Part shown: positions 5,977-25,537 of the stretch, piece after piece
Numbering within the stretch: position 1 is the stretch's first letter
Layout: each line of letters starts with the position of its first letter
From: Streptomyces nanshensis
Lineage (GTDB): Bacteria; Actinomycetota; Actinomycetes; Streptomycetales; Streptomycetaceae
Length of the DNA stretch: 33,998 nucleotides
Reading direction: 5' to 3'
NCBI RefSeq assembly: GCF_001751255.1
Contig: NZ_LJGW01000252.1
Span: 1-33,998 of the forward strand
Notes under the pieces: model-generated
Told to the model about the DNA's origin: nothing
The model's input: only the letters and a program-made list of their open reading frames with translations
Database searches by the model: none
Program-made: the position numbers and the translations under genes

Positions 5977-6033
5977 TTTCGCTATGCGTACGGCTTTCCC
6001 GTTGGTCCCCGCGCGAGCGCGTGAGCGGGGCAG

Positions 6034-7326
6034 TCAGCACCCGTACAGCCGGAGCACTTCCCGTGACCCGTGGTCGAGCGCATGCAGCGGCTGAGTACCG
6101 CCGTTCTCCGCCGGGCCAAGGCGCAGCGTCCTCTCGCCGCTCAGGGGAATGATGATCAGGGCGCGGCCTTCGACCGTGGACTCCACGTTGGCGGTGCGGT
6201 ACGGGCTGGCAGCCAGACATCCCTGGTCGAACTGCTGGTCGTAGCGCTGCCAGGGGTCAGCGAAGTAGTGGTCGGCGACGGGGCCCTGGAGCTGCCACAC
6301 CGCTACGGCGGCGATGGCCGCCACGATGCCCGGCGCGGCCGCCGTCTTGCCGGGCAGCGACATCAGACGGGGGGCGGTCCGGTAGATCACGGCGACTACG
6401 GCCGCAGCGACCAGCGCCGTGGCCCATAGAAACACCGCGGCGTGGTCGAAGAGGGCGGCTTTGGACATCACCGTCAGCGGAATCCACACCAGCCCCACGC
6501 CGAGCGCGGCCAGGCCGATGAAGGTGATCCTCTGGAACGGGTTCAGTTTGCGCGGCCAGCCGGGCCCGGGCGGCAGGAGATCGGGCTCGCGCCCGATCCA
6601 GTACGCAGCGGCGCGCCTGCGGAGGGGCGGTCCGGGTGCCGACGCTGTCTCGGGATGCCCACGGCACTCGGTGAGGAGTTGGAGTACGGCGTCGCCGAAG
6701 TCGAGGATTCGCTCGTGTACGGCCAGCTCGTCGTGCTTGAGCTGATCGGCTTCCTGGAGGCGGTCAGGCTGGAGGCGTAGCCCGGTTCCCGGCGCGAAAT
6801 TGCGATTGATCCAGTGGCCCGAGTCGTGGGTCCCTGGCAGCAGGCGTGCAGTTTTCCCGGCCATCTGGTCGGCGGGGTCGGGGATGAACTTCTCGTACAT
6901 TCGCGGATGGTCGCGGCGGCCTCGCTTGCTGTCCTGCAAGGCCTTCAAGCGGGCAGCCACCTCGTCCAGCAATGCATCGGCGCCATTTGCCCGTAGTTGC
7001 GCCGAAAGCCTAGCTCCGGGGATGTGCGACCACACTCCGCCGAGCCGGTCTGCTTCCCATCGGTGCCACAGGCTTCGGGCCGGTCCTGGCCACACGCGCG
7101 CCGTGGGTAGGCGCCGTGGAGGGCGTGCGTCGCGGAGGTGCGCCCGCAGCAGCGCGGTTGCGCAGCGCAGGTAGTCGGTCTCGACGACGTGGGAGAGGGT
7201 GACCGCAGCGAGGCGGCTGTCACTTACCGTGCTGCTGTCGCGCAGCTCCTCGACGCGGGCTGCCGCGTCCCGAGCTGCTTGGCCCTGCATGCGCAGGGCT
7301 GCGATCGCCTGATCCCAGCGGCGCAT
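6034..7326 (-). CDS. Hypothetical membrane protein with large cytoplasmic N-domain
   Basis: I do not recognise the family of this 430-residue protein. The first ~260 residues are hydrophilic and helical, rich in Arg/Ala/Leu, with the segment GTHDSGHWINRNFAPGTGL in the middle. Three hydrophobic stretches then follow (starting RITFIGLAALGVGLVWIPL, then FLWATALVAAAVVAVIY, then GIVAAIAAVAVW), consistent with membrane spans. A final ~90-residue domain contains a beta-rich segment (RALIIIPLSGERTLRLG). ATG 7326 follows a GGGGG-type ribosome site after a clear upstream gap. Transcription should run into the hairpin at 5925-5976. No catalytic motif is visible. Confidence 0.75.
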   Translation of the reverse strand: MRRWDQAIAALRMQGQAARDAAARVEELRDSSTVSDSRLAAVTLSHVVETDYLRCATALLRAHLRDARPPRRLPTARVWPGPARSLWHRWEADRLGGVWSHIPGARLSAQLRANGADALLDEVAARLKALQDSKRGRRDHPRMYEKFIPDPADQMAGKTARLLPGTHDSGHWINRNFAPGTGLRLQPDRLQEADQLKHDELAVHERILDFGDAVLQLLTECRGHPETASAPGPPLRRRAAAYWIGREPDLLPPGPGWPRKLNPFQRITFIGLAALGVGLVWIPLTVMSKAALFDHAAVFLWATALVAAAVVAVIYRTAPRLMSLPGKTAAAPGIVAAIAAVAVWQLQGPVADHYFADPWQRYDQQFDQGCLAASPYRTANVESTVEGRALIIIPLSGERTLRLGPAENGGTQPLHALDHGSREVLRLYGC

Positions 7327-12034: not shown

Positions 12035-12808
12035 TCACCCGGACCGGGGCACTGCGGGGTTGGCCGTCTCGTCAGCGCCCTTGTCCCAGGAGTCGCCCAT
12101 GATCCCGTCGTGGCTGGTGTGCAGCGCCAGGAGCGCGGCAAGCATTTGTGGGTTCCAGTCCGGCGCGTGCACCGCGGTCAGGTGGAAATGATTCTGCATG
12201 CCGCTCCCGTAGTCCAGGACGCGGGTGCCGCCGTGGCGGTAGCCGATCCGTCGGGGCGCGCGGAAGATGTCGCCGTCACTGAACAGCATGGCGGGGGCGA
12301 GTACGCACTGCACGGGGAAGATCAGCCACCACACGGCCCACCAGGCCAGGCGGCCCTTGTATCCGACCGCGGCGGCGCGGCCCTCTTGCTGTGCGGTCCA
12401 CCGCGTGCGGAGGTGGCCGTGGGTGAAGCTCCGCTCCCGGGTGACGCTGCCGACGAACCGGTCGCTCCCGTCGTACACCTCGTAGCGCGACGGGGCCTTC
12501 TCGTCGTCCGGGGCGGTGACGACCCGGGCCCACGTCTTCAAGCGGTGCGGATCGGTCCACATCGTGAACGAGCGCACGCCCCTTTTGCGCGCCGCCGTGT
12601 ACTCGCGAGCCCCGCCGGGCGGCAGTTCACGGTCGAGGTAGACCCGGGCGCCCGTGCTTTCCCAGGGGCCGCCGACGATCTCATACCGGGCCCGGGGTTG
12701 GGCTCCGGATTCGGTCTGGGTGCGCGCGCTCGCGTTCTTCGTCTTCTTCGTGCGGGGCTTGTCGTCGGCGGGATCAGCGGCGCGCCGCAGCGCAATGGTC
12801 ATCTCCAT
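12035..12808 (-). CDS. Hypothetical membrane-anchored protein, possibly LURP-one/tubby-like
   Basis: A 257-residue protein. After a basic N-terminus (residues 1-40) comes a beta-rich stretch with YEVYDGSDRFVGSVTRE, which resembles the strand pattern of LURP-one/tubby-like (scramblase-related) domains. One hydrophobic segment (LAWWAVWWLIFPVQCVLAPAM) probably enters the membrane, and a beta hairpin plus a helical tail follow. The family suggestion is weak and rests on pattern only. ATG 12808 follows GGGAGAG by 8 bases. The gene converges on the unrecognised gene ending at 11967, with a gap of under 70 bases. Confidence 0.65.
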   Translation of the reverse strand: MEMTIALRRAADPADDKPRTKKTKNASARTQTESGAQPRARYEIVGGPWESTGARVYLDRELPPGGAREYTAARKRGVRSFTMWTDPHRLKTWARVVTAPDDEKAPSRYEVYDGSDRFVGSVTRERSFTHGHLRTRWTAQQEGRAAAVGYKGRLAWWAVWWLIFPVQCVLAPAMLFSDGDIFRAPRRIGYRHGGTRVLDYGSGMQNHFHLTAVHAPDWNPQMLAALLALHTSHDGIMGDSWDKGADETANPAVPRSG

Positions 12809-13387
12809 GGTCGTGACTCTCCCTCCCTCTGTGCCGGTCCAGGTGCGGCAAGGTACAGCGACAAGTCGAGCAAGGCGTTCTCCGGGAGTCCGGCTCTCGG
12901 AGAGGGCGTCACCCGGTGACGCTGGAGGCGGTGGCGTGTTCCTCTGGCGGGGTGAGGCGGCCCGGTGGGCGGAAGACAGCCGTACGGGGAAGCCTCGTGA
13001 GCGCAGGGGTTGAGGTGTACGAGCGACCGAGAATCTCCCCGGCGAGGCGCGCCGACCTCCGCTACGTGCGTCTCCCGGCACCAGGGGCCGGATTCTCGTC
13101 TCGCAGACCCCTTGTGCGGGGCTTGCTCGTCATGCGGTGACGCTCACCCCGTCCTGGTCTTCCCCCGGTGAGCACCCAGGGCGCTTCGGGGTGGCGCATG
13201 GCGCCGTTCCTGGGAGTCGTGCACCCAGCATCGGGGCCGCGCCCACGCGCCGGGCGGGCGGTTGCCTGTCGCTTCCCTCGCCCAGGCCGGGTGGCGGCCG
13301 CTCTGCTCAAGCCCGGTTGTACCGGGCGTGCTGTGCAGCGGCCCGAACGCCCTCTGTCCGCTCTCAGACCCACTGCCGGGAGAAGTC
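12809..13387. other. Divergent intergenic region without a convincing gene
   Basis: This stretch separates the minus-strand gene starting at 12808 from the plus-strand pair starting at 13388 and should hold both promoters. I see no clear -10/-35 pair, no strong inverted repeat and no coding frame with family resemblance. Confidence 0.4.
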
Positions 13388-14233
13388 ATGTCCTACGAGC
13401 CCCACCCCGTTCCGCCCCCGCCACCGGCCGGGCCCCCGCCCGGCCCTCCCCCTCCGACGCCGACAGCGCAGGGGCATACAGCGCCGCCCTCCGGCGGGGG
13501 CGGAACGGGCCGCCGGCTGCTGTGCGTGGCGTTGAGCGTCGTGGGGGTACTGGTGCTGGTCGCCGGCGGCGGCACCGTCATCAACACCGTGATGAACAAG
13601 ACGCAGCAGGTCTCCAACAGCGAGGCGTTCGGGCCGTCAATGTGGCGGAACGTCCCGGCCGACAAGGTCTTCCCCAAGACCTTGTCGACGAAGCTGAAAC
13701 CGACGGACACCGCCGACAATCCCCGTCACGGCAGTTGGCGCCGGCTGGGCATCGCACGCCCGGCCACGTGCCGGGACGGGCTCGGGGGGCGCCTCGCCAC
13801 GGAAGCGGCGAAGCGCGGCTGCCGGAACGTGCTCCGGGCGACGTATGTCGACCCCACGGGCCAGACCGTGAGCACCGTGGCGGTGATCGTCATCTCTCCC
13901 TCCGACAATGCAGAGGCCGAACTGGGGCGGTTCCTCAACACGGACAAGCGCGGGGACGGGGTCCACGCCTACGCCGTGCCCGGTACGCCCGCCGCCGAGT
14001 GGAGCGATGAGCGCCGCATCGGGGGCGGTGGCCGACAGGCAACGGGCCTGAACCTGCCGTACGGGCTCGCCGCGGTCGCCGGCAACGTCGACGGGCGTAT
14101 GGCCGGTCACCTGCCCGAGGAGTGGGACATCGGTGATCCGTCGCAGCCGCGGCCCTGGCAAGGCGCCGCGAAGGACCTGGCGTCGTCCCTCGACCTGTAC
14201 CTGAGCGATCTGATCAACAAGGAGTCGAAATGA
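13388..14233 (+). CDS. Pro-rich membrane-anchored extracellular protein
   Basis: A 281-residue bitopic membrane protein. The first ~40 residues are Pro/Gly-rich and cytoplasmic, a single hydrophobic span follows (LLCVALSVVGVLVLVAGG, about 44-61), and the remaining ~215 residues should lie outside the membrane. The outer part contains three cysteines that could form disulfides and a strand-rich centre (STVAVIVISPSD). I do not recognise a catalytic domain. The stop codon overlaps the ATG of the subtilase gene (ATGA, 14230-14233), so the two are translationally coupled and the proteins probably act together at the cell surface, as partner, substrate or anchor of the protease. The start has GGGAGAAG upstream. 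Confidence 0.8.
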   Translation: MSYEPHPVPPPPPAGPPPGPPPPTPTAQGHTAPPSGGGGTGRRLLCVALSVVGVLVLVAGGGTVINTVMNKTQQVSNSEAFGPSMWRNVPADKVFPKTLSTKLKPTDTADNPRHGSWRRLGIARPATCRDGLGGRLATEAAKRGCRNVLRATYVDPTGQTVSTVAVIVISPSDNAEAELGRFLNTDKRGDGVHAYAVPGTPAAEWSDERRIGGGGRQATGLNLPYGLAAVAGNVDGRMAGHLPEEWDIGDPSQPRPWQGAAKDLASSLDLYLSDLINKESK

Positions 14234-16184: not shown

Positions 16185-19175
16185 TCACTCCTCCTCTGAG
16201 ACTCCGAGGCTGCGCTCCAGCTCGTCCAGGTCGACGGCGCCACCGTCGTCGACGCCGATCGCGGGACCGCGCGGCACACCGTCGGGATGGAACTCGACCC
16301 AGATCCATTTGCCGTCGTGGGTCTGGTGCGTGCCCCAGGCCGCCGCGGTCTTTCCGATCATCAGCAGCCCCCGGCCGTTCTCGTCCATCAACTGGAGCGG
16401 CTGCATGTGTGGGGATGAGCGGCTGCCGTCATGGACCTGGATGACCACGACGGGGTTCAGGTAGAGCATCCGCACCCAGAGGGGTCCCGCGTGCGCGTGC
16501 CGTACGACGTTGCCGAGCAGCTCACTCACTGCCAACTGGACGCTCCACTCCATCTCCTCGGCTGCGTGCCACCTGCGCATCTGCTCCACTGCGAGATCGC
16601 GTCCCCGGCTGGCCGATGCCGCGTCGAGGGGGAGATCCCAGCGCACAATGTGGTCGTCCGGCACCCGGTCGAGGCGTGCGAGGAGCAGCGCCGCGTCCCG
16701 TTGCCGGCCGTCGAGGTCTGCCGCGACCTCGTCGGCGAGAGTCTCCAAGCCCGAACCCGGGTCGGGCCTGCTCTCCGCGGCGGCGCGCTCCAGCCTCCGG
16801 GCCATCGCCTCGTCCAGGTGCCGGGCGTTGCTGCCGTCCGCGGCCAGGCCCGCCGTGCTCACGGTCATCAGCGTGCCCGCCGGGACCTGCTGTTCGGACA
16901 CCTCGTACGGCAGGGTCCGTCCGCCCAGCGGCGGGCCGATCGGCAGATCGCAGACCCGGCTTCCGCCGCCGGGAGCGGTGAGCGCGGGCGGCGGGTGGCC
17001 GGCGCTCGCCATCTCGAGGTGGCCGGTGGTGGCGTCGTACGCCGCGACCAGCAGCATCACCCCGGCGTCGTCGGCCTGGCGCGCCACGGACTCGTTGACC
17101 AGCACCATCAACTCGCGCAGCGGATGGTCCTCCCTGGCCAGGGTGGCCACGGCGGTGCGTACCCTGCTCATCGTCACGGCCGTACGCAGCCCGCCGGGAC
17201 CGGTGATCGCGCCGCTGATCAACGCGACACGGCCCCCGGGCAGCGGGATCGCGTCGTACCAGGCACTGGGCTCATCCGCCTGACCGGGCCGGTGGCGGGC
17301 CGCCGTCGCCACGGCGGGCACGTCCGGCAGGATCGTGGGCTGGAGACTGCGCCGCAGTTCCTGTGCCCGTGCGTGTTCGCGGTCGTACGCCCAGGCGCGG
17401 GCCAGAGCCTGCGCCAGCAGGCCGGAGACCGTCACCAGCAGGGTCCGCTCCTCCGGGCCCGGGTCTCGCTCGCGGCTCCAACTGACCGCCAGGTGACCGA
17501 CCCGCTCCCGCCCCGCAGAACCGCCCCCCACATCCAGGGGCAGCAACGCCCAGGCCTGATGGCCGCTCTGTTGTACGAGGCGGGCCAGATGCGGCCACAG
17601 GTCACCGATCTCGGCGCTGGTCACGAACCGCGGCGTCTCGTCGTCCAGCAGCGTCCGCGGCTGCAGCGCGGGGTCGTCCCGGTCCAGCAGCGCGCGGCCC
17701 CAGCCGGCCGGGTAGCCGACTTCGCCGAGCAGGGTTCGCTCGTCGCGCTCGCGGCCGGAGACCCGGCAGATGAGGAGGCCGTCCGCGTCCACGAGCGGCA
17801 GGGCATGCCGGGTGACCACGTCCAGCACGTCGGCCGCGTGGAGGGCCGCCGCCATCTCGCTCCGCAGCCGCTCCACCTGCCGCGCCCGCCCGACTGCCGT
17901 ACGCTCCGCCCGCCGGTGCGCGGTCACATCGACCATCTGCATCACCACGTGCTCCCCGGCGCTGAAAGCCCGGACGGTGTAGGCCGCGGCCATCTGCCCC
18001 TGCGGGTCCTCCACCTCCACCTCGTGCTGAACGGCTGCACCGCCGGCGGTCCGCGCGAACCGCAGCATGTTCGGCAGTCCCTGCTCCTCCAGCCGCGGGT
18101 CGGCCAGCCAGGGGATCTCGCCCACCACCCCGAATCCTCGTACGGCCGTCAGATGCCGCGCAGCGCGGTTATTCCACACGACCCTGTCGTCCGGACCCAG
18201 TGCGCACATGGGGTCCGGGTGCCGCTCCTGCTGAAGCGCCAAGAACTGGAGCCGGTTCTGCTGCCCCGTGACGTCCGCCGCGGTACCGAAGGCTCGTACG
18301 ACCTCGCCGTGCTCGTCACGCCAGATCCAGGCCAGCGTCTGCACCCAGCCGATCCGCTCCTGTGCGTCCCGGACGCGGTAGACGATCGCGGACACGTGCC
18401 CCGCGGCCGCGTCATCCTCGGCCAGGGCCCGCCGCATCTCGCGGTCGACCTCTGAGCGATCATCCTCGTGGATGTGGGACAGCCAGGTCTCCAGCCGCTG
18501 ATCCCATACCGGGGGTGCCACGCCGGTGTGGCCCAGCGCGCGCGCACTCGCCGCGTCCATCTGCACCTTGCCGGTGCGCAGGTCCCAGTCCCACGTGCCC
18601 ATCGGCGTCTCGATGCGGGTGTTGTCGGTCAGCGGCCGTTGCGTTCCGCTGCCCTCCTGCCACCACGGAGGACCGCTCAGACGAGGCATCTCAGTGCCCG
18701 GCAGCCCCCACGCCGCCGCTTCCGCCAGACGCTCCACGCCGGCACGCTCCTCGCCGGAGGTCTCGGCCGCGGTGAGGACCGAGAGGGTGCCGACGAGCAC
18801 ACCGTCGACGCGCAGCGGCGCCGACAGCACCCCCAGCTCCTCCCAGTCCGCGGTGCCGGTGCTGTCGATATCCTCGACGTCCGCCGGTGTGGGCCACGTC
18901 GGCGCCCACACCGCATAGCCCTCCCGTGCGGCCTGGACGGGAGCCGTCTCCTCCCGGTCGGTCAGCCGCTCCCACCTCCGGCATACCGCCGCCGGCAGAC
19001 CACTGGCCGCTTCCAGCCGCAGCGCCTGCTCCTCCGGCTCACGCAGGTGCGCGAATCCGCCCAGGCCGGCGACGGAGGCCATCGCCTGCTGGACCGCCAG
19101 TCGGAGATACTCGGCTTCGCCGAGCCCTTCTACTCCGGAGAGCACCCGCAGGCGCAAGTCATCCGCCCCGCCCAT
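16185..19175 (-). CDS. GAF/PAS/GAF/SpoIIE-like/HATPase multidomain regulator
   Basis: A 996-residue soluble signalling protein. In order: GAF-like domain (about 20-160), PAS (190-305, IETPMGTWDWDLRTG), a second PAS (315-425), GAF (430-600), a SpoIIE/PP2C-like domain (605-838) and an anti-sigma-type ATPase (845-960; SELLGNVVRHAH, VHDGS, NGRGLLMIGK). Streptomyces has many such proteins, which control sigma factors through anti-sigma-antagonist switches. In this copy the phosphatase acidic residues are replaced: SAWYD where GDWYD is usual, GAITGPG for GDVxGHG, and STAGL for YTDGL. It is therefore probably phosphatase-inactive while the ATPase part looks intact. GGAGGTGA precedes ATG 19175. No partner gene is adjacent. 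Confidence 0.9.
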   Translation of the reverse strand: MGGADDLRLRVLSGVEGLGEAEYLRLAVQQAMASVAGLGGFAHLREPEEQALRLEAASGLPAAVCRRWERLTDREETAPVQAAREGYAVWAPTWPTPADVEDIDSTGTADWEELGVLSAPLRVDGVLVGTLSVLTAAETSGEERAGVERLAEAAAWGLPGTEMPRLSGPPWWQEGSGTQRPLTDNTRIETPMGTWDWDLRTGKVQMDAASARALGHTGVAPPVWDQRLETWLSHIHEDDRSEVDREMRRALAEDDAAAGHVSAIVYRVRDAQERIGWVQTLAWIWRDEHGEVVRAFGTAADVTGQQNRLQFLALQQERHPDPMCALGPDDRVVWNNRAARHLTAVRGFGVVGEIPWLADPRLEEQGLPNMLRFARTAGGAAVQHEVEVEDPQGQMAAAYTVRAFSAGEHVVMQMVDVTAHRRAERTAVGRARQVERLRSEMAAALHAADVLDVVTRHALPLVDADGLLICRVSGRERDERTLLGEVGYPAGWGRALLDRDDPALQPRTLLDDETPRFVTSAEIGDLWPHLARLVQQSGHQAWALLPLDVGGGSAGRERVGHLAVSWSRERDPGPEERTLLVTVSGLLAQALARAWAYDREHARAQELRRSLQPTILPDVPAVATAARHRPGQADEPSAWYDAIPLPGGRVALISGAITGPGGLRTAVTMSRVRTAVATLAREDHPLRELMVLVNESVARQADDAGVMLLVAAYDATTGHLEMASAGHPPPALTAPGGGSRVCDLPIGPPLGGRTLPYEVSEQQVPAGTLMTVSTAGLAADGSNARHLDEAMARRLERAAAESRPDPGSGLETLADEVAADLDGRQRDAALLLARLDRVPDDHIVRWDLPLDAASASRGRDLAVEQMRRWHAAEEMEWSVQLAVSELLGNVVRHAHAGPLWVRMLYLNPVVVIQVHDGSRSSPHMQPLQLMDENGRGLLMIGKTAAAWGTHQTHDGKWIWVEFHPDGVPRGPAIGVDDGGAVDLDELERSLGVSEEE

Positions 19176-19362
19176 GTGTCACCTCCGACCCAGCACACGA
19201 ACCTCACCTCCTCATATCACCACGTACAGCATCTATCGGGCTTCCCGTGCCGCGTGCGGCCCCGGCGATACGGCGCCTCGTGGGCGGGGTGTGAGGGTTC
19301 AGCGCGGCGGTGTCCTTCGTCGCGTCCGTCCCACGGCATGTGTACCGGCGCACGAACACTCG

Positions 19363-21481: not shown

Positions 21482-22549
21482 GTGCCGTCAGCCCCGCGGG
21501 CACGACAGCAGTTGTCCAGGCCGACGTTCTACTGCCCCATCCCCTCCCGTACGCACCCGCAGTGCGCGGCCTTCGACGCTTCCGCCATGGAGTGGCTACA
21601 GCAACAACAGCTCGCCGACCCGGAGCTGCTGCGGTGGCTGACGCAGGCCGACCTCGGCGAACTGACCGGCCGCACCATGCCGTACGGCGACACAGAGGCC
21701 CTGCACGTCGTCGCGCGTCTCCATGCCGTGCTCTTCGCGCTCGATGACGGCCTGTGCGACGAGGACGAAGAGGCCGCGGACCCCGCTCGGTTGACGCGCG
21801 AGACCGGCCGCATCCTGGCCGCGCTCGACGCCCCGCACGCCGCGTGGAGGGAAGACGCGTCGGCGTACGCGCGCGCCCTGCGGGAGATACGCGAGCAGTT
21901 GGCGACGCGGATGACCGGCAGCCAGATGCGGCGGTGGATCGAGGGGATGCGGACGTACCTGACGTCACTGCCGTGGGAGGCGGAGTGCCGCCGCGGCGCG
22001 ACGCTGCCGTGCCTTGCCGACTACCTGGCGATGTGGATGCGGGCGATCGGCATGGCCCCCTCCACTGCCCTGCTGCCGGCCGTCGGCGGCTACGTGGTGC
22101 CTGACGACGACTTGGACCGGTCGGGGGTGCAGGCCCTGACGGAGATGACGCACGTGCTCGTCGCCCTCGACAACGATCTCTACTCCCGGCACAAAGAGGT
22201 CTCCAGAGTGGGCGACACCTTGAACATTGTGGACGTCCTCGCCCGCGAGTACGGCCTCGGCCTGGCCGAGGCGCAGCACGAGGCCGTACGGCAACGGGAC
22301 GCGGTCATGGTCCAGTTCCTGCGGCTCCAAGAGACGGTGGAGCCGCAGGCCGGGCCGGAACTTCGCTGCTACGTTCGCGACTTGGGGGCGTTCGTCTCCG
22401 GGCACCTGGAGTGGGCGCGCAACTCTCCTCGGTACGACCGCGACGGGCACCACCGCGGGGACTGGTGGCGGCCGCACCCGGCCGTGGGGAGCCGGGCGGC
22501 GCCGGAGGTGTCCATCGCGGGGTGGTGGCAGGGCCTCGCCGCGGCGTGA
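21482..22549 (+). CDS. Class I terpene synthase
   Basis: A 355-residue bacterial class I terpene cyclase, of normal length for the family. The aspartate-rich motif DDGLCDE (D88, D89, D93) binds the Mg-diphosphate. The NSE triad NDLYSRHKE (N231, S235, E239) is intact, the diphosphate-sensor Arg fits R187, and the C-terminal RY pair is R317-Y318. The D-rich motif resembles the DDxxCxD type of 2-methylisoborneol synthase more than the DDHFLE of geosmin synthase, but the product cannot be read from sequence. GTG 21482 follows GGAGGAG by 5 bases. It converges on a P450 only 29 bases away and, with the FAD enzyme, suggests a terpene cluster. Confidence 0.9.
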   Translation: MPSAPRARQQLSRPTFYCPIPSRTHPQCAAFDASAMEWLQQQQLADPELLRWLTQADLGELTGRTMPYGDTEALHVVARLHAVLFALDDGLCDEDEEAADPARLTRETGRILAALDAPHAAWREDASAYARALREIREQLATRMTGSQMRRWIEGMRTYLTSLPWEAECRRGATLPCLADYLAMWMRAIGMAPSTALLPAVGGYVVPDDDLDRSGVQALTEMTHVLVALDNDLYSRHKEVSRVGDTLNIVDVLAREYGLGLAEAQHEAVRQRDAVMVQFLRLQETVEPQAGPELRCYVRDLGAFVSGHLEWARNSPRYDRDGHHRGDWWRPHPAVGSRAAPEVSIAGWWQGLAAA

Positions 22550-22578
22550 CGCGCGGACAGAGGCGGGCTGACGAGTTG

Positions 22579-23886
22579 TCACGCTGCCGGCTGGACACTC
22601 CGCAGGTCCTTGGCCGGCACCGGGGTGAACTGCGCCGGCAGCTCCACCAGCGGGCACGACATCGCCTTGAACTCCCTCCGCAGCTCGTTCTGCCCGATCG
22701 CCGGTGTGATGTCCTTCAGCCGGTCCAGCACAGCGTTCGCCGCCTCGAGGGCGATGGCGCGGCCGATGGGCTCACCGGGGCATTCGTGCGGGCCCTCGCT
22801 GAAGGTGAGGTCCGACTGGTTTCCGTGGCTGAGCCCCATCAGGTCGTCGTCTGCATCCGGCATGATCGTCGGATCGACGTTGGCGGCTCCCAGCCCGACG
22901 ACGACCATGTCGCCCTCACGGATGTAGTACCCACCGAGCTCCGTGTCGCGGGTGGCGAACCGTCCCACGACCTTCGTCAGCGGCGGGTCGACCCGCAGGG
23001 TGTGCTCCATCATCTGGTGGATACCGGTCGCGACGCACCCGAACTCGGCGATCTCCTGGAGCGCGGCGGCCAGGATGCTGGCGATCAGGCTGATCGAGGT
23101 CTCGTTACCGACGATCAGCAGGAGCCGGAGGTGCTCGCGTACCTCTAGATCTGTCAGACCGTCCCCGTCCGCGTCCCGGTGGTGCAGGAGGAGCGAGGTC
23201 AGATCGTCGCCCGGCTGCTGCTTCTTATGGTCGACGACTTCCTGGAGACGGTCGATGAGGAACTGGTTACTTTTTCCGGCAGTGCCGCTTCCGCTCATCA
23301 TGTCGTGTGCGGCCTCGGCGAGCTGCGGGCCGTACTCCGTTTTCATCCCCAGCATCCGGGCCATCACCCGCCCCGGTGCCTGCCGCGCGTACTGGCTCAC
23401 CAGCTCCACACAGCCGTCCTGGGAGAACCCGTTGATCAGCTCGTGGACAACCTTCGCCGTGAAGAAGCGCAGCGCCCGCGAGTTCCTGGCGACCCACTCC
23501 TTGATGGCACCGGTGACGGCCGCCCGAAGACGGCGTGCCTCCGGCCCGTCCATCAAATTGCACAACGGTGCTGGCGTGACGAACGGGGCCAGCGGGTGGT
23601 CCGGAGTGATCTCGCCGCGCTGCACCGGCGGCCACGCCCGCGGGTCGCGAGTGAACGTCTCCGACTGCCGCAGGGTTTCGAGCGTCGCCTGATATCCCAC
23701 GGTGAACCAGGCCGGGTAGCCGTAGTACGTGACGGGGACGACCTGCTCGAACCGCTTGCGCCACTCCTCGTACGCGCCGGGCCCGTCGGGAGCGCCGTCG
23801 AGTCGCGGCAGTTCGGCAGTGCCGCCGTGGTGGGCGGGGCATCCTGGCGGCGGCGCCACGAAGTCGGCGGGGTGCTGGGTGGTCAC
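22579..23886 (-). CDS. Cytochrome P450 with atypical ExxR (HxxR)
   Basis: A 435-residue bacterial P450. The heme loop FSEGPHECPGEPIGR has the ligand C369, and the I-helix reads LLLIVGNETSISL (T263) in place of the common AGxxT. In the K-helix, where EELLR is usual, it has MMEHTLR, so the ExxR glutamate is replaced by His295 while R298 remains. Otherwise the sequence is full length with no gaps, so it is likely a folded enzyme. It is 76 bases downstream of the FAD monooxygenase gene in the same direction, so they probably share one mRNA. The convergent terpene synthase suggests it oxidises the terpene product; this is inference. Confidence 0.9.
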   Translation of the reverse strand: MTTQHPADFVAPPPGCPAHHGGTAELPRLDGAPDGPGAYEEWRKRFEQVVPVTYYGYPAWFTVGYQATLETLRQSETFTRDPRAWPPVQRGEITPDHPLAPFVTPAPLCNLMDGPEARRLRAAVTGAIKEWVARNSRALRFFTAKVVHELINGFSQDGCVELVSQYARQAPGRVMARMLGMKTEYGPQLAEAAHDMMSGSGTAGKSNQFLIDRLQEVVDHKKQQPGDDLTSLLLHHRDADGDGLTDLEVREHLRLLLIVGNETSISLIASILAAALQEIAEFGCVATGIHQMMEHTLRVDPPLTKVVGRFATRDTELGGYYIREGDMVVVGLGAANVDPTIMPDADDDLMGLSHGNQSDLTFSEGPHECPGEPIGRAIALEAANAVLDRLKDITPAIGQNELRREFKAMSCPLVELPAQFTPVPAKDLRSVQPAA

Positions 23887-23962
23887 GGTGTCTCCGGGGG
23901 GTCACGGTGTACAGGTCGGGCAGAGGGGCCGTTCAACAGGAACGGTGGGCGGCGGCGGAAGC

Positions 23963-25378
23963 TTACCGTCCACTCTCGTCAACTGCCTCTGTGGCCTGGG
24001 GGGTTGATGCGGTGCGGCCCCGGACGAGGGCCTTGGTGAGGATGCGGGGAGACGCCATTGCCGCCGGGTGCTGGCGCATGTGGTAGACGTTCAGGAACGT
24101 CTCGAACACCTGGCGGTCGCCTTGGGCGGCCAAGTACAGCAGCCGCTGTTTGTACCCCGCGGCCGCGCGCACCGTCCACGGGATCCGCCGCCCCGTCACG
24201 TGGCGCTCCCAGAACAGGTCCTCACTGATGGACATCAGCCACGGGATCCGCGCGATCCCGGCGATCCGCCGCTGTGCCGTACGCGAGAAGCTCTGGTCGA
24301 CGCGGCTCCCGCGCGAGAGGGCCTGCTCCAGGGCGGCCGCCTGTTGAACGGCCACCGTCATGCCCTGCCCGTAGACGGGGTTGAAGGCGAACAGCGCGTC
24401 GCCCAGCACCAGAAGTCCGGTCGGCATCCGACGGTAGTGGCGGCGCCGGTTCTCCGTCCTGGTGAACCGTTTGACGCCGGAGACGGGCGTGGCCTGGTCG
24501 AGGAGCGCGGTGAGGTCCGTGTTGCCCAACTCGCGTGCGTACGCCTCCCATCCGGCGTCGTCCGTGGGCGGGTGGTCGCCGGCCGCGCCGAACAGGGTGA
24601 CGAGCCATAGCCCGCCTCCGATGTCCGCCGCGTAGGCGCCCCGCGGCCGGTCCGGGGCCTGGTTGATCTGCTGCAGCCCGTGCACTCCCGGCAGCGGCTC
24701 CTGCACGCGCAGGACGCGGCTGGCGTAGGCGAGTTTCGCGTCCACCGCCCTCTCGCGGGGGCGGGGATATCCGGCCTGCTCCAGCAAGTCCGGCAGCCGG
24801 CCGTAGCGTCCGGACGCGTCGACCACGACCTCCGCCGCGATCGTGCTCTGGCCGCCGTCGGCCCCCGTGACGTGCAGGCCCGTGATGCGTCCGGCCTCCA
24901 CCCGCAACCCCCTGGCCGTGGCGCCGTCCCGCACTGTGATCTTCTCCAGTCCGGTGACGCGGCGCCGTACGGCCGCCTCCAGCACATCCCGGTGCACCGT
25001 CTGGACCGCCACCCCGGCCTCAATCTGAGGGATCGTCCCCGCCCACACCCGCGTACAGGCCTGGGCGCCATGGTCGAAGACCGGGGCGCCGCCGGCTCTC
25101 AACTCCTCGCGCAGACCGGGGAACATCGCCTCCAGGCCCTGCGCGCCGAGGTCCAGCAGTCCGTGCACATGCGCGGCCTGCGGCGTACCGCGGCGAGGGG
25201 AGTTGTCGTCGGGGAGCGGATCGCGCTCCACCAGCGTCACCCGGTCCGCGTGGCGTGCGAGGACGCGGGCTGCCGCCAGGCCGGCGATCCCGCCTCCGAC
25301 GACCACAGCCGAATGCAGTTCAGGACCGTCTCCCGAGGTGGAAGCGGAGAGGTCGTCGTCGCCGGCGGGAGATGGCAC
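23963..25378 (-). CDS. FAD-dependent monooxygenase/oxidoreductase
   Basis: A 471-residue flavoprotein of the PHBH/UbiH-like group. The FAD dinucleotide fold is SAVVVGGGIAGLAAARVLA (about 23-41), with the ribose-binding Glu in TLVERD. A second FAD segment, LVLGDALFAFNPVYGQGM, lies near three quarters of the length. The central AEVVVDASGRYGRLPDLLEQ resembles bacterial epoxidase/hydroxylase-like enzymes that act on terpenoids and polyketides. The start is GTG 25378, because GGAGAG lies 5 bases upstream; an in-frame GTG at 25510 would add 44 non-conserved residues. It precedes the P450 gene by 76 bases and is probably its operon mate. The substrate is unknown. Confidence 0.87.
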   Translation of the reverse strand: MPSPAGDDDLSASTSGDGPELHSAVVVGGGIAGLAAARVLARHADRVTLVERDPLPDDNSPRRGTPQAAHVHGLLDLGAQGLEAMFPGLREELRAGGAPVFDHGAQACTRVWAGTIPQIEAGVAVQTVHRDVLEAAVRRRVTGLEKITVRDGATARGLRVEAGRITGLHVTGADGGQSTIAAEVVVDASGRYGRLPDLLEQAGYPRPRERAVDAKLAYASRVLRVQEPLPGVHGLQQINQAPDRPRGAYAADIGGGLWLVTLFGAAGDHPPTDDAGWEAYARELGNTDLTALLDQATPVSGVKRFTRTENRRRHYRRMPTGLLVLGDALFAFNPVYGQGMTVAVQQAAALEQALSRGSRVDQSFSRTAQRRIAGIARIPWLMSISEDLFWERHVTGRRIPWTVRAAAGYKQRLLYLAAQGDRQVFETFLNVYHMRQHPAAMASPRILTKALVRGRTASTPQATEAVDESGR

Positions 25379-25537
25379 CAGGGCTCTCCAGACGTATGCG
25401 GACAGCAGGAGCAGTGGCGGAACCTGGTCCACCACCGTGTGCCCGGAGCATAGCCAGCCCAGAGATCTCCAACACCTCTGCACCGGGGAGGAGTTGGGGA
25501 CGCGACCCACACCCGGGGAGCGCCGTACCCTGGGTTC

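Follow-up and report, generated by a model that had tools for sequence, protein, structure and literature searches.

RsbU and RsbP of Bacillus subtilis and OsaC of Streptomyces coelicolor are active phosphatases (their sequences were not part of the alignment used below). Dimers of the PP2C fold, driven by a linker, are described as relaying sensor signals in RsbU and predicted to do so in OsaC and in Rv1364c of Mycobacterium tuberculosis (passages of PMC12143880), while docking in SpoIIE and RsbU proceeds via three surface loops (excerpts of PMC11418112). The pseudo-PP2C domain of RssB uses the switch of this fold without catalysis and keeps it for binding (passages of PMC5468089, PMC12143880 and PMC7226468), and a non-catalytic intermediate that retains the switch has been proposed for PP2C evolution (PMC5468089, in part). 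Here we describe a gene from a stretch of 33,998 nucleotides of Streptomyces nanshensis (NCBI RefSeq assembly GCF_001751255.1, contig NZ_LJGW01000252.1, positions 1 to 33,998 of the forward strand; hereafter “the window”), which sits in a 7.7-Mb draft genome. Its product (the window protein) joins GAF and PAS sensor domains to a SpoIIE-type domain and an RsbW-type ATPase, and the acidic metal ligands of its SpoIIE-type domain are gone. With a probability of roughly 0.6, we read the protein as a sensor-gated ATPase of the RsbW/UsfX type in which the phosphatase would have turned into a non-catalytic relay or docking module.

Metal site and predicted fold

In SpoIIE structures the ligands of the bound Mn are D628, D746 and D795, and those of a putative second metal site are D610, D628 and G629 (passages of PMC3517971 and PMC5468089). 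The corresponding sites were mapped by aligning a profile of the window protein and its relatives to B. subtilis SpoIIE (PDB chain 5mqh), with SpoIIE residue numbers derived from the offset in that profile alignment. The features concerned are as follows.

16185..19175, minus strand: whole open reading frame (ORF), 996 residues, GAF-PAS-PAS-GAF-pseudoSpoIIE-HATPase, open from an ATG start
16662..17372, minus strand: pseudo-SpoIIE (PP2C-fold) domain, residues 602-838, from the Pfam SpoIIE match and the fold match, with limits from the alignment
17262..17264, minus strand: A638, replacing metal ligand D610 (alignment to SpoIIE)
17208..17210, minus strand: A656, replacing metal ligand D628 (alignment to SpoIIE)
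16851..16853, minus strand: A775, replacing metal ligand D746 (alignment to SpoIIE)
16698..16700, minus strand: R826, replacing metal ligand D795 (alignment to SpoIIE)
16299..16631, minus strand: HATPase_c_2 domain, residues 849-959 (Pfam, 37.8 bits against a cut-off of 27.4)

In a 77-row alignment all four acidic ligands are absent from the window protein (Ala, Ala, Ala and Arg). A first-pass annotation of this DNA had placed the loss of the conserved Asp at three motifs, SAWYD, GAITGPG and STAGL. All three losses are real, and alignment to SpoIIE puts the lost sites on D610, D628, D746 and D795; the fourth loss, R826, had not been listed, and the Asp of SAWYD itself is present. The ligand lost at that motif is the Asp preceding WYD, whereas passages of PMC3517971 and PMC5468089 do not give the retained Asp as a metal ligand. 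R826 occupies the first Asp position of a C-terminal DD, of which the neighboring D827 is retained; D827 and D714, both present, are invariant among the acid-keeping (“active”) rows of the alignment. We infer from the sequence that the window protein is without phosphatase activity; a catalytic phosphatase was rejected as a candidate reading because all four ligands are gone.

The first-pass annotation had also described the fold-forming sequence, the C-terminal ATPase motifs and the reading frame as intact, and these statements hold. The SpoIIE family PF07228 matches residues 646-835 at 85.2 bits (cut-off 25), the ATPase box residues E885, N889, D916 and G934-R935-G936 are present (presumably the N, G1 and G2 boxes), and the ORF is open throughout. 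An AlphaFold2 model of residues 590-970 from six sequences reached a mean predicted local distance difference test score (pLDDT) of 78.5 and a predicted template modeling score (pTM) of 0.79. Its best fold match was 3ke6 (Rv1364c; Z = 23.7 over 321 residues), where the root-mean-square deviation (rmsd) of 10.0 implies that the two domains probably sit differently in model and structure. Further matches were SiaA (6k4e, Z = 20.3), Pseudomonas aeruginosa RssB (Z = 19.9), SpoIIE (5ucg, Z = 19.8) and RsbX (3w40, Z = 19.7), and the ATPase part matched UsfX in the UsfX-RsfB complex (8ih8 chain C; Z = 16.5, rmsd 2.2, 121 residues). The predicted fold is that of a PP2C domain plus a UsfX-like ATPase.

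Within the host genome PF07228 gave 30 matches, 29 of them above the cut-off and counted as 28 genes (L030, below the cut-off, was not counted; L012 and L013 were taken as one gene, as were L027 and L029). Only the window gene was seen without all four ligands. Partial loss of ligands is nevertheless not rare in this genome, because four other genes each lack one or two ligand Asp (G replaces D746 in L007 and D628 in L020; N replaces D628 in L022; L023 has G for D628 plus ED at the fourth site). At least 5 of the 28 genes thus carry a loss; L024 and L026 gave no readable residue at the fourth site. A Pfam match alone would label all 28 as phosphatases. At E ≤ 0.001 the host had 62 HATPase_c_2 matches of mixed kinds, the fused ones among them.

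Relatives sharing the loss and constraint on the domain

All four ligands are also missing from four relatives that share 40-43% identity with the window protein: those of S. zhaozhouensis (L090, identical with L032), S. sedi (L091, identical with the G347 match), S. oryzae (L071, identical with L092) and genome G088 (L070). The frame is open in all five divergent genomes. After removal of near-duplicate, fragmentary and PAS-only loci, the alignment comprised these five proteins (the dead clade), two from another lineage with ligand losses (L072 and L074), 53 acid-keeping rows and 17 others that fell outside the family or had partial losses and were excluded from the comparison set (among them L063, L075 and L076, which lie inside the family with one ligand changed). 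The 53 active rows were picked for keeping the acids, so Asp at the ligand sites is there by construction; as an independent check, 39 further family matches not selected by motif all had Asp at the four sites (one extra ORF, from L181, aligned only partly and was not counted). A fortieth match read alongside them is the second degenerate gene of S. oryzae described below.

The five proteins formed one clade with support of 100/100 in the SpoIIE-HATPase tree (77 rows), and the same clade was recovered at 100/100 with the motif columns removed (41 rows). In a tree of the N-terminal sensors (37 rows), S. zhaozhouensis with S. sedi, the window protein with L070 and L071 (94/91), and a set of other rows met in an open fork; this tree neither confirms nor contradicts a single clade. 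A profile search of the genus matched 54 of 219 genomes at E ≤ 1e-150, of which 4 hold clade members, and in the remaining 50 all four Asp were present in every match listed. In the family, 14 of 257 genomes matched at the strict threshold of E ≤ 1e-200, with clade members in 3; the two genome samples overlap. A search for relatives in viral contigs returned 38 stretches that matched a pattern, none of which was confirmed.

Losses within the SpoIIE domain are concentrated at the metal site. Of its 58 invariant columns (at least 95% identical across the 53 comparison rows), 36-41 are kept in each dead-clade row and 25 in all five. Eight are missing from every dead-clade row, namely the four ligands, their neighbors H660 and Y773, and two linker positions.

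17352..17354, minus strand: R608, in the linker, where active rows have Gln and none of the five does
17340..17342, minus strand: Q612, in the linker, where active rows have Leu and none of the five does

Acid columns (five of the 58, D827's included) were enriched among the columns lost in all five (Fisher P = 0.0008), and this concentration is not due to chance. Elsewhere the domain shows no general decay, with its PP2C core largely kept. In the ATPase, 27 of 42 invariant columns were kept in all five rows and two lost in all five, and the box residues were kept in every dead-clade member and in both L072 and L074.

Selection on the domain was gauged from the ratio of nonsynonymous to synonymous substitution rates (dN/dS), mostly by NG86 because YN00 failed for many pairs. 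NG86 gave 0.248 for the dead domain of S. zhaozhouensis and S. sedi and 0.295 for that of L070 and L071 (about 0.25 and 0.30); six active pairs span both values (0.078, 0.141, 0.189, 0.212, 0.287 and 0.507). By YN00 the values were 0.064 and 0.273, compared with 0.011-0.075 in five scorable active pairs; L070/L071 therefore look less constrained by this method, if still far below 1. Non-motif identity of the dead domain was 0.41-0.50 at an ATPase identity of 0.41-0.53, where the means of active pairs were 0.34-0.39 (the pairs are not independent), so that, L070/L071 excepted, the non-motif domain is as conserved as in active pairs at equal ATPase divergence, or more so. Across the putative switch region (residues 662-692), identity was 0.48-0.65 in dead pairs versus means of 0.39-0.51 in active ones. 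Selection thus maintains the dead domain, although one pair shows some relaxation. The first-pass annotation had suggested selection for a non-catalytic role, with a scaffold and a ligand-gated kinase or anti-sigma factor as candidates, and for selection of this general kind the sharing of the loss at 40-43% identity, the open frames and the dN/dS values of the close pairs all offer support.

Proposed signal route and competing explanations

Upstream of the SpoIIE-type domain the protein carries four sensor segments, which together with the switch region and the translation start are located as follows.

19182..19186, minus strand: Shine-Dalgarno-like GGAGG, 6 nt 5' of the ATG
18711..19112, minus strand: first GAF domain, residues 22-155 (Pfam GAF_2)
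18282..18551, minus strand: first PAS domain, residues 209-298 (Pfam PAS_3)
17901..18260, minus strand: second PAS-like segment, residues 306-425, limits from the alignment (Pfam PAS_4 below cut-off; it matched two stretches, the second of which was not located)
17382..17900, minus strand: second GAF-like segment, residues 426-598, limits from the alignment (second GAF_2 stretch not located)
17100..17192, minus strand: putative switch-helix region, residues 662-692, kept, and named from its position after the D628 motif

No STAS (anti-anti-sigma) domain and no receiver domain were found by Pfam up to E = 1 across the 996 residues, GAF and PAS standing in place of the latter.

In the reading that we favor, the protein is a sensor-regulator whose ancestor was a SpoIIE-type phosphatase fused to an RsbW/UsfX-type ATPase. 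The GAF and PAS domains would sense a signal, which would reach the ATPase by way of the linker helix and of the switch region that the dead PP2C domain retains; the ATPase in turn may phosphorylate or hold a STAS partner or bind a sigma factor. A former two-way kinase/phosphatase would in this way now act in one direction only, as a signal-gated kinase or anti-sigma factor, and the dead domain would serve as relay, dimerizer or docking surface.

Several observations weigh against such a role. No STAS, anti-sigma or sigma gene was found by Pfam among the 10 window neighbors scanned (three of them without a match), and no neighborhood common to the relatives was seen (10 flanking proteins scanned in S. 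zhaozhouensis, S. oryzae and G088). The dead clade is rare, with a patchy distribution. With 31 of the 42 ATPase invariants kept, the window protein ranks lowest among the seven dead proteins (34-38 in the others). The second GAF-like sensor is not essential, because the segment is missing from L070 and L071 in the alignment. Between these two, NG86 dN/dS was 0.069 for the ATPase versus 0.295 for the dead domain (0.23-0.24 for the first GAF and PAS domains) and identity was 0.90 versus 0.74; active pairs in the two bins of ATPase identity closest to this pair had 0.75-0.95 and 0.82-0.94, slightly more than 0.74. Divergence was thus faster in the dead domain than in the ATPase, which means some relaxation here. 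More distant comparisons gave NG86 values of 0.406 (window protein/L071), 0.800 (window protein/L090) and 0.594 (L072/L074), which are unreliable at such divergence.

The faster divergence in L070/L071 and the patchy presence also speak for a functionless gene in decay, but the open frames in five divergent genomes, the low dN/dS of close pairs and the concentration of the losses at the metal site make this very improbable, and a pseudogene was rejected on the latter two grounds. Less credible still is that metal catalysis persists in a residual or altered form in which D827 and further residues serve as ligands: D827 and D714 do remain in the window protein, but all four mapped ligands are gone, and the D827 position is G in S. 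zhaozhouensis and S. sedi and E in L070. The residues that replaced the acids invite another thought. Across the clade, 18 of the 20 ligand places now hold A, S, T or G (the others being R826 in the window protein and E in L071), and residues fixed in the clade include S654 and S773, where active rows have I/V/A and Y/F. The emptied pocket might hence bind a small molecule and make the domain a further sensor, although small residues may merely repack an empty site and both pocket and ligand are hypothetical; we regard this as rather improbable. Somewhat better placed, though still unlikely, is a substrate trap or decoy, in which the dead domain would dock a phosphorylated STAS protein, shield it from active paralogues and so antagonize other SpoIIE phosphatases of the same cell. 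The host does hold 27 further SpoIIE-domain genes over the cut-off (4 with ligand loss, 2 unreadable at the fourth site), and SpoIIE and RsbU dock through three surface loops, but binding of phospho-STAS by the dead domain is purely hypothetical.

The gene has as neighbors, on one side, a small ORF of secreted type and a gene for an S8 protease, and on the other, genes for DUF6233, RDD and GmrSD_C-type proteins, a terpene synthase, a cytochrome P450 and an FAD oxidoreductase. The last three lie side by side at 21482-25510 and perhaps form a small terpenoid cluster. In G088, an IS481-type transposase gene lies near the dead-phosphatase gene (positions 1862-2854 and 3225-5753 of L070) on a 74.6-kb contig, possibly a mobile setting. 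In S. oryzae (L092), a gene of the sigma-70 family, its product ending in a SnoaL-like domain at the C-terminus, is found at 12807-13838, ∼4.3 kb downstream of the clade member.

Other degenerate genes and comparison with known systems

Loss of the metal site is also seen in the second lineage, which has the same architecture. Its member L072 (336-3329) has lost three of the four ligands and kept D628, and L074 (411-3389) has lost all four; the first Asp is replaced by His and the third site reads HTSG or HAPA. A single origin of both dead lineages was rejected (approximately unbiased test, P = 0.0007), although the group was named after an earlier tree had been seen, when the test calls for one named beforehand. 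Because grouping them is rejected, the two lineages are separate, and the loss in the second appears to have happened independently. Two further genes deserve mention. L097 of S. hygroscopicus (6001-7224), a more distant SpoIIE-HATPase protein that branches elsewhere in the tree, seems to have degenerated at three of four sites (motifs TAWFD, YSASL and RGAAVL) with D628 kept. S. oryzae carries a second SpoIIE-HATPase ORF (L150, 325-2766, a frame of 814 residues) ∼5 kb upstream of its clade member, in which D610 is replaced by S, D746 by E and D795 by N while D628 is kept; since this ORF (S, D, E, N) adjoins within ∼5 kb, S. oryzae has two degenerate SpoIIE-HATPase genes close together.

We tentatively extend our reading to the Streptomycetaceae, where a two-way SpoIIE-RsbW sensor may more than once have been made one-way through loss of the metal site, with the PP2C switch retained as an allosteric relay that gates the fused kinase in cis; we regard this as a possibility rather than an expectation. 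Such a bacterial pseudophosphatase would be an intermediate of the sort that PMC5468089 (in part) proposes for PP2C evolution. If the dead domain does relay to its fused ATPase, these proteins would provide a natural test, repeated in the second lineage, of a PP2C switch working without catalysis, an idea put forward on the basis of SpoIIE and RssB (passages of PMC5468089). Among the papers listed in searches of the open PubMed Central (PMC) literature, none dealt with a dead SpoIIE domain in Streptomyces, although Zhang and Shi 2004, on the Streptomyces PPM family, may note such cases, and none showed a pseudo-PP2C protein in Streptomyces or one fused to an RsbW-type ATPase. Pseudo-PP2C proteins as such are already known from RssB, TAB1 and PHLPP2. 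The last two are eukaryotic, unlike the window protein. To our knowledge, neither has a fused GHKL ATPase. As PP2C pseudophosphatases of animals with altered metal-site residues (passages of PMC13358185), they are like it in the state of the metal site.

Among bacterial proteins, SpoIIE, RsbU and RsbP of B. subtilis and OsaC of S. coelicolor resemble the window protein in their PP2C fold and their architecture of sensor plus linker (PMC12143880, in part), but SpoIIE has the metal ligands that the window protein lacks. Escherichia coli RssB likewise has a PP2C fold without active-site residues (excerpts of PMC7226468), and its switch serves regulation without phosphatase activity (passages of PMC5468089). 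It differs in having a receiver domain and in delivering sigma-S to ClpXP, where the window protein has GAF/PAS inputs and a fused GHKL ATPase; the RssB matched by our model was that of P. aeruginosa and not the E. coli protein. The best match in both sequence and fold is Rv1364c, with its RsbU and RsbW domains: in both proteins a SpoIIE/RsbU-type domain is followed directly by an RsbW-type ATPase, and both have PAS input (passages of PMC12143880). Rv1364c carries in addition a C-terminal anti-anti-sigma domain (same source, in part), of which none was found in the window protein, and it keeps the Asp motifs GGDWFD, GDVVGHG, YTDG and NDD, whereas the window protein has lost the ligands.

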